From Halapricum desulfuricans (lineage in GTDB: Archaea; Halobacteriota; Halobacteria; Halobacteriales; Haloarculaceae): 64,000 bases of DNA. The translations under genes and the position numbers were made by a program. Within the stretch, counting starts at the first letter, position 1. Every line of letters begins with the position of its first letter. Shown here in pieces: positions 56,077-64,000 of the stretch. The notes beneath the pieces were generated by a model. It did not search any database. It had not been told where the DNA came from and saw nothing but the letters and a program-made list of their open reading frames with translations. The stretch lies in assembly GCF_017094465.1 (NCBI RefSeq), contig NZ_CP064791.1:620001-684000 (forward strand), read 5' to 3'.

Positions 56077-56649
56077 TCACCCGAACTCGATGTCCTCGCG
56101 CGTGGTGACTTCGCCGAACAGAAAGTCGGCATGCTCCAGCGCGTACTCGCGGTGTCCGTCCTCGATCGCGCCGACGGCGTCTTCCAGCAGGATCGGTCGG
56201 TAGTCACGCAAGCCGGCGCTTGCGGCCGTCTGCAGGACACAGACGTTCGCCAGCGTCCCGACGATCACCAGGTCGTCGATCCCGCGGGCGTTCAGCCACC
56301 CTTCCAGTTCGGTCTGATAGAACGCATCGTAGGTGTGCTTCTCGACGACCAGATCCGCGTCGTCGGGATCGAGTTCGTCGACGAGTTCGGCCTCCCAGGA
56401 ACCTTCCAGCACGTGCTCGCCCCAGCGCTCGAACTCGTCGTAGTAGTGGGCGTCCTCGAACTGCTCGGGCGGATGGACGTCCCGCGTGAATACGACGGTC
56501 GCACCCGCGTCGCTGGCCTGATCGACTAGGTCGACGCAGGGCTCGATGGCGTCTTCGCTGCCGGGCGCGTAGAGGGTCCCGTCGGGATGGCAGAACCCGT
56601 TTTGCATGTCGACGACCACGACCGCTGTCGAATCGGGATCCAGACGCAT
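56077..56649 (-). CDS. Cysteine hydrolase (nicotinamidase/isochorismatase-like)
   Basis: 190 residues from the ATG at 56649. Catalytic triad candidates: Asp in VVVDMQNGF, Lys in VEKHTYDAFY and Cys in GTLANVCVLQTA. Metal-type residues follow the first block (CHPDGTLY). Nicotinamidase activity would feed nicotinate to the phosphoribosyltransferase at 59820, but other amidase or isochorismatase-like activities are possible. Confidence 0.85.
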   Translation of the reverse strand: MRLDPDSTAVVVVDMQNGFCHPDGTLYAPGSEDAIEPCVDLVDQASDAGATVVFTRDVHPPEQFEDAHYYDEFERWGEHVLEGSWEAELVDELDPDDADLVVEKHTYDAFYQTELEGWLNARGIDDLVIVGTLANVCVLQTAASAGLRDYRPILLEDAVGAIEDGHREYALEHADFLFGEVTTREDIEFG

Positions 56650-56698
56650 ATCGACACGTACGTCCCTCTCAGGGGATAGTTGTGCCGAATTGGATGTG

Positions 56699-56707
56699 TT
56701 TTTATAT
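56699..56707 (+). promoter_or_regulatory. TATA box of the surface protein gene
   Basis: TTTTTATAT lies 22-30 bases before the ATG at 56729, the expected distance for a leaderless haloarchaeal promoter. It supports that start over the longer frame. Confidence 0.6.
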
Positions 56708-56728
56708 CTGAACGTCGTGGCACGATAT

Positions 56729-58393
56729 ATGCGTCCCCGCACTGTCCTACTGATCGTCCTCGTCGGGGTGCTTGCGGTGGGTTCTGCCTCTCTTTCCGCC
56801 GGCGCCGCGAGTCACGGTCACGCCGCCGAGCAGGTACCGGTCCAGTCGTCTGCGGACACGGAACCGCCGGATCCGCCCGGCGACCCCCTCGGTTGGGAGA
56901 ACGGTTACTGGTACAACGAATCGATCGACGTGACGCCCGATGACGGTCTCAACGAGAGTGAACTCGACGCCGTCGTCGCGCGTTCGATGGCTCGTGTCGA
57001 GTCCGTCCGCGGTATCGAGTTCAACGGGACCGTCCCGGTCGAGGTAATCAGCCGGGCGGCGTTCAGCGACAACCGGAGCGTCAGCGACACGAACACCTCG
57101 ACGGCCAACCGGATCCATCAGAACGTCAAGTGGGAGGCGATGTTCTCGATCGGTGAAGACGAAAACGCCCTCTCCTCGTTCCGGTCGACCCAGACGGCGA
57201 CGATCGGTGGCTACTACAGTCCCGGCGACGACCGGATCGTGATCGTCTCGGAGAACGCGACCACCCCGAAAATGGACGAGGTCACGCTCTCCCAGGAACT
57301 GTTTCACGCCCTGCAGGACCAGAAACTCGAAATCTCCTTCAACCGATCGACCCGGGAGGGACTCAACGCGGCCAACGGGATCATTGAAGGTGATGGCAAT
57401 CTCGTCGACCAGATTTACCAGACCAACTGTGGTGACGACTGGAACTGTGTAACTCCAAGTAGCGACGATTCCAGCGGTGGCGGTGACACGAGCGACATCA
57501 ATTACGGGATCTACCTGACGCAGTATCAGCCGTACAACGACGGCCCGGCGTTCGTCCAGCAGATCCGCTCTGAGGGTGGCTGGGAAGCAGTCAACGACGT
57601 CTACGACAATCCGCCGACCAGCACCGAGCAGGTCATCCATCCCGAGAAATACCCTGACGAAGGCCCAGTAAATATTACGTTCACTGATTCGAGTAGCGAC
57701 GAATGGTCTGTGCCAGACTTGGGCAACGGGAGCGTCGACTACGCCCGCTTCGGCCAGGCCGGGCTGAGCGCGATGTTCCTGCGGCCGGCGGTCGCGTCAC
57801 AATACAGCGATGTTCCCGTTTTGCGTCCCGAACAGATATTTACTGACCGTCGGACGCTCAACTACGGTCTCGACGTCACGAACGGCTGGGGCAACGACCG
57901 GCTCTACCCCTACGCCACGAATGAGTCGGCGGAAACCAACGAGACCGGGTACGTCTGGCAGATCGAGTGGGACACGGTCGACGACGCCGGTGCGTTCGCC
58001 GACGCGTACGTCGAGTTGCTTGAGTACTACGGTGCCGAATCGGTCCCCGAGAACGAGAGCACTTACCGGGTCTCTGACGACGAACCGTTCGGTGACGCGT
58101 TCTACGTCGGACACGACGGGCAGACGGTGACGATCGTCAACGGGCCAACTGTCGCCGATCTGTCGGAGATCCGTGCTGGCGTGGCACCAGCGAACGAAAC
58201 GGACCCAGACGAGACGACTGAGTCAGACGAGACGAACACGGACACCGATGAGACGACTGAGTCAGACGAGACGGCGGGACCAGATGGGGCGACGACGGAC
58301 ACCGGTGATGGATTCGGTCCGGGCTTTAGTGTCGCCGTCGCGTTGCTCGCAGTGCTTGCCAGCGCCGCCGTCGCAGTTCGACGCCACACGTAG
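56729..58393 (+). CDS. Hvo_1808-type surface protein with PGF C-terminal anchor
   Basis: 554 residues. Signal peptide at residues 1-27 (VLLIVLVGVLAVGSASLSAG). The core, about 60-470, is shared with the next gene. At residues 187-196 it reads SQELFHALQD where the paralogue has HELVH, so the first His of a zinc HExxH motif is Gln189 here; the later EGDGNLVDQIY corresponds to EGDANYVQDRY. A Thr/Asp/Glu-rich linker (residues about 480-525) precedes DGFGPGFSVAVALLAVL and VRR, a PGF-CTERM signal for archaeosortase processing and lipid anchoring. Several sequons suggest N-glycosylation. Confidence 0.82.
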   Translation: MRPRTVLLIVLVGVLAVGSASLSAGAASHGHAAEQVPVQSSADTEPPDPPGDPLGWENGYWYNESIDVTPDDGLNESELDAVVARSMARVESVRGIEFNGTVPVEVISRAAFSDNRSVSDTNTSTANRIHQNVKWEAMFSIGEDENALSSFRSTQTATIGGYYSPGDDRIVIVSENATTPKMDEVTLSQELFHALQDQKLEISFNRSTREGLNAANGIIEGDGNLVDQIYQTNCGDDWNCVTPSSDDSSGGGDTSDINYGIYLTQYQPYNDGPAFVQQIRSEGGWEAVNDVYDNPPTSTEQVIHPEKYPDEGPVNITFTDSSSDEWSVPDLGNGSVDYARFGQAGLSAMFLRPAVASQYSDVPVLRPEQIFTDRRTLNYGLDVTNGWGNDRLYPYATNESAETNETGYVWQIEWDTVDDAGAFADAYVELLEYYGAESVPENESTYRVSDDEPFGDAFYVGHDGQTVTIVNGPTVADLSEIRAGVAPANETDPDETTESDETNTDTDETTESDETAGPDGATTDTGDGFGPGFSVAVALLAVLASAAVAVRRHT

Positions 58394-58460
58394 GCGCACG
58401 TTGTGGTTGTTCGACACGTCGTCCGGAACGCCTTTGCTCAGGAGTCCCCTACGACGGCCA

Positions 58461-59771
58461 ATGCGACGGCACCTCGCGATTCTGGCGCTCGCGGCTGCGC
58501 TCGTGATCGCGGGGTGTATCTCACCACCTGCGACTACGGACGATATCGGCGTCGAGAACGGATACCGATACGACGCTGACATCGCGGTCACGACCGGCGA
58601 CGGCCTCAATGAGAGCGAACGCGAGGCCGTCGTCGGACGCGCGATGGCACGCGTCGAGTACATCCGCGGCCACGAGTTCCAGGAGACCGTCGACGTACGG
58701 GTCATCTCCCGGGCGGAGTACCGCAACCGCACCAATGACGCTTCGGACGCTGCAAATCTGACCGCCCGACAGCGATGGAACGAACAGGTCTGGGAGGCGT
58801 TGCACATCATCGGCGAGGGCGAGACGTATCCCGAGGCGCGGGCGACCAACCGCGGCTCGTCAGTGGTGGGGTACTACTCGCCGGGGGACGGGGAGATCGT
58901 CCTCGTCAGCGACTCGGCGACGCCGCGGGTGGCCCGCGGGACGCTCGTCCACGAACTCGTCCACGCGTTACAGGACCAACACCTCTCCCTCGGGGAGACG
59001 CGCCAGTTGCAGGACGAGCAACTCGCCGTCTGGAGTCTCATCGAAGGCGACGCCAACTACGTCCAGGACCGCTACGAACGTCTCTGTGGGGTGACCTGGG
59101 AGTGCATCGAGACGCCCCGAGCAGCCCCCGTTCGATCGGGCTCGTTCAATCAGGGACTGTTCCTGGTGAGCTATCTCCCCTACGCCGAAGGGCCCGAGTT
59201 CGTCGAGGCATTGCGCGAGCGTGGCGACTGGCGTGCTGTCGACGACGGGTACGGACGGTTCCCCGCGAGCACCGAACAGGTCATCCATCCCGACCGCTAT
59301 CCCGGCGACGAACCGGCGACCGTGCCTATTCCTGATCGCTCGAACAGTGGATGGGAGCAGTTTGACGACCTCGACCGTCCGGGCCATGACACCGTCGGCG
59401 AGGGATCGATCTACGCGATGTTCGCCGCGACCGGCGTGATCGACCGCAGCGGGGCAGCGCAGTACGACTACGACCATCCGCTGTCGAGCGGCTGGGCGGG
59501 CGATCGGATCGTCCCCTACCACAACGGTAGCGGCGGCTACGGCTACGTGTGGCGAGTTCGCTGGGCGACTCCCGGCGAGGCCCGTGCGTTCGCCGAGGGG
59601 TACCGGACGCTTCTCGACCGTCGGGGCGCCGATCGAATCGGTGACGGTCGATACCGTATCGGGGACGGCGGATTCGCCGACGCGTTCCGGATCTCGCGGG
59701 ACGGACAGACGGTGACGATCGTCAACGCTCCGACCGCTCCCGGCCTCGATGCCGTCCACGCGCCGTCGTGA
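58461..59771 (+). CDS. Hvo_1808-type lipoprotein, putative metallopeptidase
   Basis: 436 residues. Signal peptide with lipobox (ALVIAGC), so anchored by its N-terminal lipid. It is a paralogue of the gene upstream (same GYYSPGD and STEQVIHP blocks). HELVHALQDQ gives His164-Glu165-His168, and LIEGDANY about 30 residues later offers Glu195 as third ligand, the pattern of gluzincin-type zinc peptidases. Hvo_1808 proteins have no proven activity, so peptidase function is inferred. Probably co-transcribed with its paralogue (67 bases apart). Confidence 0.82.
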   Translation: MRRHLAILALAAALVIAGCISPPATTDDIGVENGYRYDADIAVTTGDGLNESEREAVVGRAMARVEYIRGHEFQETVDVRVISRAEYRNRTNDASDAANLTARQRWNEQVWEALHIIGEGETYPEARATNRGSSVVGYYSPGDGEIVLVSDSATPRVARGTLVHELVHALQDQHLSLGETRQLQDEQLAVWSLIEGDANYVQDRYERLCGVTWECIETPRAAPVRSGSFNQGLFLVSYLPYAEGPEFVEALRERGDWRAVDDGYGRFPASTEQVIHPDRYPGDEPATVPIPDRSNSGWEQFDDLDRPGHDTVGEGSIYAMFAATGVIDRSGAAQYDYDHPLSSGWAGDRIVPYHNGSGGYGYVWRVRWATPGEARAFAEGYRTLLDRRGADRIGDGRYRIGDGGFADAFRISRDGQTVTIVNAPTAPGLDAVHAPS

Positions 59772-59819
59772 CGGGGATGGAATAGGTCCCTTTTTTCATC
59801 TGCAGCCGGTAGCTCGCGT

Positions 59820-60977
59820 ATGACCGATAGTGGCCCGTTCGACTTTCTCGGGGTGGACGCGATCCGTGCGGAGCGAGCGACCGACGCGTACTTCGACCGC
59901 ACGGTCGAGGCGCTCGAACACGCGGGCAAGGATCCCCACGTCGTCGCCGAAGTGACCGCCGACCAGTTTCCCGACGGCGAGTTCGAGGTGCTGGCCGGGC
60001 TGAAGGACCTCGCGCATCTCTTCGAGGGCTACGAGGTGGACGTCGAGGCACTGCCGGAAGGGCAACTGTTCGACGGCGGTCCGGTCGCCCGGATCGAAGG
60101 CGATTATCTGGAGTTCTGTCGGCTGGAGACGGCGTTGCTCGGGTTTCTGTCACACGCCAGCGCCATTGCGACCAACGCCTTGCGAGCGCGGCGGGCCGCG
60201 CCGGACTCGACGGTGCTGAGCTTCGGCTCGCGACACGTCCATCCCGCGATCGCGCCGGTCGTCGAGCGGGGCGCCCTGATCGGCGGCCTCGACGGCATCT
60301 CCAACGTCGCTGCCGGCGAGATGATCGGCCGGGAGGCCGGGGGGACGATGCCCCACGCGCTGGTGCTTTCCTTCGGCCGAGGTAACCAGGAAGCGGCCTG
60401 GCGGGCGTTCGACGAGGCTGTCGGCCCCGACGTGCCCCGTGTCGCGCTCTGTGACACCTTCACCGACGAGGTCGACGAGACGCTTCGCGCCGTCGAGACT
60501 ATCGAGGACATCGACAGCGTCCGCCTCGACACGACCGGTTCCCGGCGTGGCGACTTCAGACACATCATCAAGGAGGTCCGGTGGGAACTGGACGCACGGG
60601 GTCACGACGATATCGGTGTCTTCGTCAGCGGCGGCCTCGGGCCCGACCAGTTGCGCGAGCTTCGGGACGTTGCCGACGGGTTCGGCGTCGGCGGGTACGT
60701 CAGCAACGCGGACCCGGTCGATTTCGCACTGGACATCGTCGAGGTCGACGGACAGCCCACTTCCAAGCGCGGCAAGCTCGCCGGCGTGAAAGACGTCTAC
60801 CGGACCCCGGACGGCGGTCATCACGTCGCGCTCGCGGACCGGCCCGGCCCCGTCGACGGCGAGTCACTCATGGAGCCGCTGGTCCGGGACGGCGAGATCG
60901 TCCGGGAGTTCGATATCGAGAACGCCGCGCGGCTGGCCAGTCAGGACGCCGACGCTGTCGGGTTCGCAAGCGAGTGA
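59820..60977 (+). CDS. pncB: Nicotinate phosphoribosyltransferase
   Basis: 385 residues. Family blocks: FEGYEVDVEALPEGQLF, FLSHASAIATNALRARRAAP, FGSRHVHPAI and VRLDTTGSRRGDFRHIIKE with the phosphate-binding VFVSGGLGPDQLREL. It forms nicotinate mononucleotide from nicotinate and PRPP in NAD salvage. A T-run (59791-59796) 24-29 bases before the start could be its promoter or the end of the upstream transcript. Confidence 0.9.
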   Translation: MTDSGPFDFLGVDAIRAERATDAYFDRTVEALEHAGKDPHVVAEVTADQFPDGEFEVLAGLKDLAHLFEGYEVDVEALPEGQLFDGGPVARIEGDYLEFCRLETALLGFLSHASAIATNALRARRAAPDSTVLSFGSRHVHPAIAPVVERGALIGGLDGISNVAAGEMIGREAGGTMPHALVLSFGRGNQEAAWRAFDEAVGPDVPRVALCDTFTDEVDETLRAVETIEDIDSVRLDTTGSRRGDFRHIIKEVRWELDARGHDDIGVFVSGGLGPDQLRELRDVADGFGVGGYVSNADPVDFALDIVEVDGQPTSKRGKLAGVKDVYRTPDGGHHVALADRPGPVDGESLMEPLVRDGEIVREFDIENAARLASQDADAVGFASE

Positions 60978-61058: not shown

Positions 61059-61613
61059 CTACTGGTGTCCGACCGGCTCGTCCGGGTAGTCCTTTTCGCC
61101 GACTTCGATCGGAACGTCCAGCCAGTTCTCCATCGGGATCAGCGGACATTCGTAGGCCTTGTTGTATGCGCACGTCGGGTTGTACGCCTCGTTGAGATCC
61201 AGGATCCACGTTCCGTCCGCAGTCCTGTGCTCGCCCACCTCGAGATCGATGTACCGGCCCGCGCCGTAGGTCTCCTCGTCGTTGGTCTCGTCGCGAAACG
61301 GCACCCACAGACGGTCTTCGCCGCCGACCGGCTGGTAGGCCTGTAGCGTCAGCTCCTCGCCGTCGACCTCGAACCGGAACTCACCGTAGCGAACGTACTC
61401 CTGTGAGCCGTCGGCGGTCGTCTCGACGGTTATGTGCTCCTTGTCGTCGTGTTCGTGTAGTTCGAGTTCGAACCGATACGCCGGGTCGATCGGGTAATAC
61501 TCCAGTCCCGCGAAATCGGCGTGGTTCGGAATCGGCGACCGCGGATGTGAGCCGAAATACTGTTCTTTCTGTTCGCGCTGCTGTTCGAGTTCGCTTTGCC
61601 AGTCGTCGCTCAT
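61059..61613 (-). CDS. DUF1684 family protein
   Basis: 184 residues. The start WQSELEQQREQKEQYFGSH, then FVPF-like LWVPFRDETNDEETYGAGRY and DLNEAYNPTCAYNKAYECPL are the DUF1684 signature. Usually found in bacteria and haloarchaea; no function is known. Conserved Cys residues near the C-terminus (NPTCAY, YECPL) may bind metal. Confidence 0.85.
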   Translation of the reverse strand: MSDDWQSELEQQREQKEQYFGSHPRSPIPNHADFAGLEYYPIDPAYRFELELHEHDDKEHITVETTADGSQEYVRYGEFRFEVDGEELTLQAYQPVGGEDRLWVPFRDETNDEETYGAGRYIDLEVGEHRTADGTWILDLNEAYNPTCAYNKAYECPLIPMENWLDVPIEVGEKDYPDEPVGHQ

Positions 61614-61849: not shown

Positions 61850-63181
61850 TCACTCGTCCCACGCGTCGGGCCAGATATCGGCCGCTCGCATACTGGGCTC
61901 GGCATCCGACAGATCGTCTCTGAGCCGCTGTGGGTCGATCCGATCGAGGTCCGTCCCGACCAACTCGCGAACGAGCAGCGTCACCAACATTGCGTGCTCG
62001 CGGAGCGTCCGTTGATCGACCTTGTCCCTGGTGTCCGCCCGCGTGTGCGTCCACCCTCGTTTCCAGGTGCCGGTCTCGTCGTTCGCCTGGCTGTGCACCT
62101 GCAGCGCCGGGATGCCCCGGCGGAGAAACGGCCAGTGATCGCTGTAGGGATGGGGCCGGTCCTGGACCTCCAGCGGATGGCCGACCGCCGCAAACGCCTC
62201 TTCCGCAAGTGCGCCGAGTTCGTCACTACCGTGTGTCAGCGCCTGAATCGTCCGCTCCCGTCCGACTCCGTCGAGGTTGACGACCGCATGCACGTCCTCG
62301 GGATCGACGCTTGCCGCCAGGGTCTCGCTGCCCTGTAGCCCCAGTTCCTCACACCCGACCAGCGCGATCTCGACGCCGCGGTCGAGTTCCAGTTCCCGCA
62401 GTGCGTCGACGACGGACAGAGATACGGCGACGCCGCAGCCGTTGTCCAGCGCCCCCTCCGCGACGTCGTGGGCGTCGTAGTGAGCGACCAGGAGCACGGA
62501 CGCGTCGGTCTCGGGACCGAACCGGCCGCGGACGTTCTGGCTCGTTCCCGGTTCGACCGACGCGGTGACGTTCAGCCTGGCGGCCGCCCCGTTTCGAGCG
62601 TAGTCACGGAGCCACTCGCCGGTCTCGTGGCTGACTCCCACCGCGGGCAAGGTGTCGCCGACCCGGAGCGAGCCGGTCGGCGGGAGCTGTCCGGGCCGGT
62701 GATTCGCGAAGATGAACCCCGCGGCGCCGCGTTCGGCCGCGTGACCGATCTTCTCGGTCCGGTGGACGAACCGATCGGCCGACGGCGGCGTGGCCGCACT
62801 CGCGACGACGATCGCGTCCTCCACGTCGTTTTCGTCGAGTTCCTCGGGCGTGCCGTACCCGACATCCACCAGTGGTGCCTCGACGGTCGCCTCCGGGCAG
62901 TACGGCAGCGCTCGCGCCTCGAAGGTTCGCTCGCGGTCCTTGCTGTGGACGTGGACCAATAGCGATGTCTCCCCGCGCGTCCACTCCGGGATCGCGAACG
63001 ACTCCTGGCGGACGTCCTCGACGCCGAGTGCTTCGAGCTCGTCACGCAGGAACTCCGCCGCCCGCTTTTCGCCCGGATGCCCCCCGAGTCTGTCCTCGAA
63101 TTCCGCCAGCGTCGTCACCACGCGCCAGGGGCGGTCGGACTGCCAGATCGTCCCGAGACGGCGCGTCACCCGTTCGTCCAT
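61850..63181 (-). CDS. M28 family metallopeptidase
   Basis: 443 residues from the ATG at 63181. Zinc ligands and catalytic residues can be assigned: His and Asp in VAHYDAHD, Asp in GALDNGCGV, Glu pair in VGCEELGLQGS, Asp in VVNLDGVGRE and the last His in YSDHWPF. A PA-like insert (ATPPSADRFVHRTEKIGHAA) lies between. No signal peptide is seen, so an intracellular aminopeptidase is likely. It shares orientation with the M48 gene upstream. Confidence 0.88.
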   Translation of the reverse strand: MDERVTRRLGTIWQSDRPWRVVTTLAEFEDRLGGHPGEKRAAEFLRDELEALGVEDVRQESFAIPEWTRGETSLLVHVHSKDRERTFEARALPYCPEATVEAPLVDVGYGTPEELDENDVEDAIVVASAATPPSADRFVHRTEKIGHAAERGAAGFIFANHRPGQLPPTGSLRVGDTLPAVGVSHETGEWLRDYARNGAAARLNVTASVEPGTSQNVRGRFGPETDASVLLVAHYDAHDVAEGALDNGCGVAVSLSVVDALRELELDRGVEIALVGCEELGLQGSETLAASVDPEDVHAVVNLDGVGRERTIQALTHGSDELGALAEEAFAAVGHPLEVQDRPHPYSDHWPFLRRGIPALQVHSQANDETGTWKRGWTHTRADTRDKVDQRTLREHAMLVTLLVRELVGTDLDRIDPQRLRDDLSDAEPSMRAADIWPDAWDE

Positions 63182-63258
63182 GGCGAATGCGTCGAACGGG
63201 TGGACCAAAAAACTCCCCTGCGCGGATGACACGGTCGCGTCGTTGCGTCCGATCGCAG

Positions 63259-64000
63259 TCAAGACAACTCCGGGCGAGTTAGGGACTCATCCTCTCCCCC
63301 TTCCAGTTCGGCGGCGACCGACTGCAGACGCTCTATCCGCCGGTCGGTCGGCGGGTGTGACCGAAGCTTGATCGTGAGTCCGTCGTCGTCCGCCGACTCG
63401 TCGCGGGAGAATCCGTACGGGAGCAGGCACAGCCCTTCGACGAGGCTGTCCATCGACCGGAGATCCGTTTCGGGGCTCGATTCGACCGCATCGTCGAGCT
63501 TCCGGAGCGCGCTGGCGAGTGCCTCCGGTTCCCCGGTCAGCATCGCCCCTGCCCGGTCGGCCGCGAACTCCCGGTCCCGGGAGAGCCGGTGAGTGAGGTA
63601 GACGACTGGCGTCGCCAGGACCCCCAGACCGACGCCACCGAGCACGAGCGAGAGGCCCGCCGCGACCAACAGTGACACGGGCGAGGTCGGATCCGTCCAG
63701 CCCGCCGCAACGATCAGCGCGAACAGCACCGCGCCACCGAAGAGGTTCGCCCGCAGCCAGCGCGGGAGCCCGGCGACAGGCCGATCGCTCGCCAGTGCCG
63801 GCAGAAACGTCGCCAGGGTCATCACCGTCGCGTCCCGGTTCTGGAGATGCGCGAGTTCGTGTGCCAGCACCGCGTCCAGTTCCGCGTCGGTGAGTTGTTC
63901 GCGCAACCCGCTGCTGAGGACGATCATCGGATCGCCGCCGCCGACCGAAAAGCAGTTGGGCGTCGTCGAGTCGATCAGCCCGACCGCCGGCGGCTGGCGA
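63259..64000 (-). CDS. M48 family (HtpX-like) membrane metalloprotease, 5' end outside window
   Basis: The visible part starts before SVGGGDPMIVLSSGLREQL, the typical lead to the zinc motif. HELAH is in LAHELAHLQNRDA, and two helices follow (LFGGAVLFALIVAAG and LLVAAGLSLVLGG). The third ligand region is REFAADRAGAML. The start and first helices lie beyond base 64000. HtpX-like proteases handle misfolded membrane proteins under stress. Confidence 0.88.
   Translation of the reverse strand, partial: RQPPAVGLIDSTTPNCFSVGGGDPMIVLSSGLREQLTDAELDAVLAHELAHLQNRDATVMTLATFLPALASDRPVAGLPRWLRANLFGGAVLFALIVAAGWTDPTSPVSLLVAAGLSLVLGGVGLGVLATPVVYLTHRLSRDREFAADRAGAMLTGEPEALASALRKLDDAVESSPETDLRSMDSLVEGLCLLPYGFSRDESADDDGLTIKLRSHPPTDRRIERLQSVAAELEGGEDESLTRPELS

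Follow-up and report, generated by a model that had tools for sequence, protein, structure and literature searches.

A histidine or a glutamine as predicted first metal ligand in the gluzincin-like Hvo_1808 family of surface proteins

The name of the Hvo_1808 family of surface proteins, taken from the model NF038145, carries no function, and none is assigned in the literature that we searched, where Hvo_1808 itself is named as a lipobox test protein (PMC2945643). The window analysed here, a stretch of 64,000 nucleotides from Halapricum desulfuricans (contig NZ_CP064791.1, positions 620,001 to 684,000 of the forward strand), encodes two members of this family in head-to-tail order, with an intergenic gap of 67 bases, and raises the question of what it means that one of them carries HExxH and its neighbour QExxH at the putative metal site. 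An initial annotation had cast the HExxH protein as an active peptidase on the cell surface and the QExxH protein as its inactive partner or inhibitor. We found no report of the fold, the metal site or the split between Gln and His in this family in the literature searched.

The tandem pair and its predicted fold

The features of the two genes, in window positions, are as follows.

56729-58393, forward strand: gene A, a 554-residue Hvo_1808 family protein of the QExxH type with a PGF-CTERM-like tail (translation, NF038145, A-clade in the trees)
57293-57307, forward strand: QELFH of gene A, residues 189-193, beginning with Q189 (Q139, E140 and H143 in domain numbering)
57386-57409, forward strand: EGDGNLVD of gene A, with the putative third-ligand Glu220 in EGDG (codon 57386-57388; E170 in domain numbering) and the Gln-associated G173, N174 and D177
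58310-58387, forward strand: C-terminal segment of gene A resembling a PGF-CTERM sorting signal (TIGR04126)
58461-59771, forward strand: gene B, a 436-residue Hvo_1808 family protein of the HExxH type with a lipobox (translation, NF038145, B-clade)
58506-58517, forward strand: lipobox IAGC of gene B, with Cys19 (motif)
58950-58964, forward strand: HELVH of gene B, H164-H168
59043-59054, forward strand: EGDA of gene B, with the putative third-ligand Glu195 (codon 59043-59045) and Ala198 at Glu+3

Both products are full-length NF038145 proteins, matching the entire model (positions 1-432) at 558.6 bits for gene A and 492.3 bits for gene B against a cut-off of 200, and they are 42% identical to each other. 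The paralogous surface pair, with its starts, ends and motifs as annotated, is confirmed. In gene B, H164, E165, H168 and E195 complete the gluzincin motif of HExxH plus a downstream Glu. In gene A this motif is incomplete, with Gln189 in place of the first His and Glu190, His193 and Glu220 present. The spacing from the first to the third ligand position is 31 residues in both. The same genome encodes a third family member (G000:C1:1847862-1849052; L003:1324-2877), with HELVH, HVLQHQ and a PGF-CTERM tail, which lies on the opposite strand to a reading frame that resembles thioredoxin reductase (a name given from reading the sequence) and belongs to a long-branched subclade also present in three other genomes (G001-G003). 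The nearest named relative found is Halorhabdus salina, in which three tandem A-clade members, one with His and two with Gln (L034:2300-7572), occupy the place where the A-B pair would be; another genome (G114) has three glutamine-type members in tandem.

AlphaFold2 models built with 58 aligned sequences reached a pLDDT of 92.4 and a pTM of 0.91 for gene B, and 93.7 and 0.92 for gene A. In both models one helix carries the HExxH or QExxH motif, and the helix after it the third-ligand Glu. After re-alignment with VIA-align 2, the best match of the N-terminal domain of both is a putative hydrolase from Chloroflexus, 3cmn (Z 10.1 and 11.7), followed by M1 aminopeptidases (up to Z 7.4 and 7.8), M9 collagenases (up to 6.5 and 7.3) and M4 enzymes. 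To our knowledge, no function has been established for 3cmn. Chains of the M1, M9, M4 and M32 families match both models and those of M2 and M30 the model of gene A, at Z values of about 5-8, where, by the tool's own note on values below 8, resemblance may be merely a common arrangement. The C-terminal domains match the soluble domains of PknH and TiME, TM1622 and the C-domain of RseB at Z 5-7. A sequence search of solved structures returned nothing significant, the similarity even to 3cmn being insignificant (E 0.56), and the Pfam assignments DUF6782, M9 and M78 were rejected as weak matches, all below their cut-offs. A gluzincin fold nevertheless seems likely to us, since many separate gluzincin families match the same stretch and this goes together with the HExxH...Glu pattern. 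Both proteins thus resemble, in their models, an N-terminal gluzincin-type metallopeptidase domain followed by a C-terminal domain like PsbP or the RseB C-domain. For gene B, the invariant HExxH and downstream Glu together with these fold matches support the annotated gluzincin-type site.

Among characterized gluzincins, the clostridial collagenases ColG, ColH and ColT (M9) share with the family HExxHxxQ, an Ala at Glu+3 in the histidine-types and a fold match at Z 6-7. Their ligand Glu lies 28-30 residues past the second His, compared with 27 here. They differ in their other accessory domains, and sequence does not place the present proteins among them, as gene B scores 12.5 bits with the M9 model PF01752, below the cut-off of 26. 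The glutamine-types depart from the collagenases further, altering both the first ligand and the Ala.

Histidine and glutamine across the family

The two motifs were aligned over 122 distinct relatives found by similarity, a set from which matches with E above 1e-20, three short domains and near-duplicates had been left out. Only two residues occur in the first-ligand column, His 90 times and Gln 32 times, so that the difference between genes A and B is not a chance one; the catalytic Glu, the second His and the third-ligand Glu are each present in 122 of 122. A larger set of 198 (127 His, 71 Gln; domains below 340 residues or 120 bits and near-duplicates left out) gives the same pattern. Its added glutamine genes come mostly from a DNA pattern requiring QE..H, [FY] at position 142 and EGD, and counts at these residues are therefore biased in the larger set and unbiased in the smaller; the scan of genome contigs, which used gene A as query, favours glutamine-types as well. 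Of 292 genomes 51 show the glutamine pattern, as do 19 of 76 genera.

In the trees, the B-clade has His throughout (59 of 59), and the A-clade mixes the two states. The A-clade tree was built from 91 of 114 A-clade rows remaining after an 82% redundancy cut, to which 8 of the 83 B-clade rows were added as an outgroup; it leaves out a distant relative from a Chloroflexota MAG (L066:5659-7155), which carries HEYTHALQDQ and EGDA and scores 150.9 bits with NF038145, under the cut-off. A quick version of this tree implies 10 changes between Gln and His and the bootstrap version 11, at least 5 of which are forced by strongly supported branches. A single origin of Gln, found in 0% of 200 bootstrap trees, was rejected. 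If Gln could not revert, 15 gains would be needed as against 11 changes, and every one of 40 bootstrap trees would need 1-7 steps more, by parsimony counts; apparent returns from Gln to His are seen on the tree. Weaker relatives of about 20-90 bits, below the family cut-off (for example at G007:C2:709872, G017:C1:1764370 and G024:C8:248163), match the active-site region and positions 332-423 and apparently form a distant sister family.

The exchange of the ligand does not occur in isolation. A scan of 428 columns for states that accompany Gln over the nine supported independent pairs of the quick tree placed D177 at 8.6 of 9 pairs, Phe or Tyr at 142 at 7.5 (sign test p 0.016), G173 at 6.4, S138 at 5.8 and N174 at 4.5; no pair ran in the opposite direction for any of these five. 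Columns 185 and 26 scored 5.1 and 5.4. The five pairs left on the bootstrap tree, with which p 0.05 is unreachable, gave 4.9 for D177, 3.9 for F/Y142, 2.8 for G173 and 2.7 for S138, and there some distant columns (243, 26, 117 and 122) rank equally high. Within the set of 122, F/Y142 is found in 31 of 32 glutamine-types and in none of the 90 histidine-types, G173 in 28 of 32 and again none of 90, and S138 in 29 of 32 compared with 3 of 90. In the set of 198, position 173 (Glu+3) is Ala in 122 of 127 histidine-types and Gly in 58 of 71 glutamine-types. Asn174 is present in all 53 glutamine representatives of a separate tabulation. Gln146 is invariant in the rows tabulated (122 of 122 similarity-found relatives, 99 of 99 rows of that second tabulation). 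Columns 143-172 are coupled to Gln in at most about 3.6 of 9 pairs, which argues against a single gene-conversion tract; conversion of the whole site is on these grounds not favoured, though a patchwork of conversions is possible. Two close relatives from Haladaptatus with opposite states (L045:5980-7503 with Gln, L064:5980-7503 with His) differ at S138/G, Y142/L and G173/S.

Because G173, N174 and D177 stand at Glu+3, +4 and +7, and the Gln has S138 on one side and F/Y142 on the other, all five should be placed at or close to the helix faces that make up the site. In collagenases the Ala at Glu+3 sits 4.4 Å below the zinc, and the two His are supported by a Gln one turn past HExxH and by a Glu one turn past the gluzincin ligand (PMC3711286). 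By position count, not superposed coordinates, these residues map to 173, 146 and 174 here.

Possible roles of the glutamine-type protein

Glutamine genes are under purifying selection, with dN/dS of 0.12-0.33 in nine genome pairs, next to 0.11-0.51 for their histidine partners. A histidine gene lies directly downstream in 28 of the 53 glutamine-bearing genomes and upstream in the same tandem array in two more, and 11 of the 53 have no histidine member above the cut-offs used; obligatory tandem pairing was rejected. Among these 11 is Halobacterium salinarum (G051), where the glutamine-type is the only family member found in the genome. For 7 of the 11 the search ended at E 1e-45, so that weaker relatives are possible there; the other four were searched to E 0.001, with none found in two (G010, G033) and weaker relatives below the family cut-off in two (G006, G038). 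A-clade members with His occupy the same tandem position.

Metal binding, catalysis, metal identity and substrate are inferred. With the catalytic Glu, the second His and the third-ligand Glu kept, A most likely still binds a metal, and the repeated swap of Gln and His together with few neighbouring changes suggests a re-tuned site and not a dead enzyme. We consider it moderately probable that A is such a selected, re-tuned metal-site protein rather than a dead inhibitor of B. Its first metal ligand would be Gln, accompanied by an altered shell (Ser just before it, Phe or Tyr three residues on, and Gly, Asn and Asp at Glu+3, +4 and +7); it would still hold a metal, in a changed geometry or with a changed preference, and would act alone, as a hydrolase or as a metal-gated binding protein. 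What speaks against a re-tuned site is that the His ligand is truly lost in A. Glutamine is a weaker metal ligand, and a hydrogen-bond network of Gln, Glu and His in a metal-free protein could also retain these residues. The QExxH case that we found described as active is VMP3 of Volvox carteri, the original paper on which is reportedly that of Heitzer and Hallmann from 2002. This extracellular metalloproteinase, with QExxH at its metal site, is reported to be active and to favour copper (PMC7717551); it differs from the Hvo_1808 family in its metzincin-type QEXXHXXGXXH, with a His and not a distant Glu as third ligand, and belongs to an unrelated fold class.

That the A-types are instead pseudopeptidases, acting as partners or inhibitors of the HExxH protein encoded next to them in the manner of M16 alpha/beta subunits, appears unlikely, though it deserves serious consideration. 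The loss of the first ligand, the Gly that replaces the Ala under the metal in most glutamine-types and the frequent position of A directly before a histidine gene all fit a partner, and among prokaryotic M16 peptidases there are known two-gene operons of an active and an inactive member (PMC11266112). Yet the seven ADAM-type pseudopeptidases listed there with Gln in place of the first His have lost the catalytic Glu in all cases and the second His in five, whereas both residues are invariant in the Hvo_1808 family, Glu140 being kept in 32 of 32 similarity-found glutamine-types. The genomes without a histidine member, the apparent returns to His and the His-bearing A-clade members in the same tandem position also count against a partner. 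Low dN/dS, the genomes without a histidine member, the loss of Glu in the listed pseudopeptidases and the activity of VMP3 are what lead us to favour a re-tuned site over a dead partner.

A different possibility, and one that we think distinctly improbable, is that A has become metal-free, its former active site closed into a pocket for a peptide or other ligand, with Glu170 and His143 holding Gln139 in place. Such a pocket would account for the Gln, the conserved Glu and His and the tuned neighbours without catalysis, but it leaves the invariant Glu140 with no obvious role, and several of the Q/H interchanges would each have to restore a zinc enzyme. We give hardly any credence to Gln as a passing decay state of a redundant duplicate. 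One base change in the genetic code suffices to turn His into Gln, but dN/dS of the glutamine genes is as low as that of their partners, the pattern is spread over many genomes and genera, and not one of the 122 similarity-found relatives has a residue other than His or Gln in the column. The initial annotation's reading of A, an inactive partner of B or its inhibitor, is not supported as a general model, given the invariance of the other site residues, dN/dS as low as that of B, recurrent coupled switching between His and Gln, and the 11 genomes that have no histidine member above the cut-offs. Its view of B holds as far as motif and fold matches indicate a gluzincin-type metallopeptidase, most likely an active zinc peptidase, but not in setting A beside it as the inactive counterpart.

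Surface anchors and genomic neighbourhood

The annotated difference in anchors is real for this pair. Gene A ends in GPGF, a hydrophobic stretch and RR, scoring just below the cut-off of the PGF-CTERM model TIGR04126 (23.2 bits, E 3.8e-5; cut-off 24.5), and a gene for the cognate ArtA is present in the genome (TIGR04125, 288.6 bits, cut-off 75). Across the family, the anchors are not linked to the exchange of Gln and His. By a rough regular-expression assignment, glutamine-types comprise 32 with a lipobox, 29 with PGF-CTERM and 10 with neither assigned; histidine-types of the A-clade 23, 8 and 13; and B-clade members 59, 11 and 12, plus one with both. Histidine-types thus mostly have lipoboxes and glutamine-types have either anchor about equally often; the idea that the anchor defines the type was rejected. 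In Hvo_1808, a C19S change in the lipobox still allowed processing and cell association, at a lower amount (PMC2945643).

The pair is flanked by two conserved genes.

56077-56649, reverse strand: divergent amidohydrolase of the isochorismatase family (PF00857, 177.8 bits), which we take to be PncA-like from this Pfam match and the triad residues
59820-60977, forward strand: pncB, nicotinate phosphoribosyltransferase, co-directional and downstream (NF006415, 511.5 bits, cut-off 243)

The nicotinamidase profile PRK11609 scores 43.7 bits on the PncA-like gene, below its cut-off of 174. In a sample of 59 genomes from 32 genera, drawn from the haloarchaeal class, every genome has pncB and 57 have the PncA-like gene; the latter lies divergently within 1.5 kb of the family gene or genes in 48 of the 59, and pncB within 1.5 kb downstream in 47. 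What is new here is that the Hvo_1808 family is found in all 59 genomes and that in 43 of them, representing 24 genera, it has a divergent PncA-like gene on one side and pncB on the other, as at 56077-60977 in the window; we saw no description of this neighbourhood in the literature searched. In one genome (G032, contig C29) the PncA-like gene and pncB are 617 bases apart and the family gene is on another contig. Downstream of pncB in the window, an M28-family peptidase with a PA domain is encoded on the reverse strand (61850-63262); this gene, fixC, fixX, an acetyltransferase and the gene at 61059 had no match in the 33 named loci L034-L066. The conserved gene order suggests that the family may be linked to NAD salvage, or that it shares an operon with these genes.

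Present in every genome of the haloarchaeal sample and in most of them adjacent to NAD-salvage genes, the family has no function assigned in the literature searched. A wider picture, which we put forward tentatively and would call doubtful as a whole, is that of a gluzincin family whose metal site toggles between two forms, His/His/Glu with zinc and Gln/His/Glu with a second shell of its own, the latter probably tuned to another metal such as copper; the family would work at the cell surface and be connected with the NAD salvage of the flanking pncA and pncB. Some ten changes in ligand identity, accompanied by changes at a few recurring neighbour positions, provide natural sequence pairs for testing how a gluzincin selects its metal, and the two close Haladaptatus relatives in opposite states are one such pair. 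If true, the toggling between His and Gln would be a natural evolutionary series on how a metalloenzyme changes its metal.
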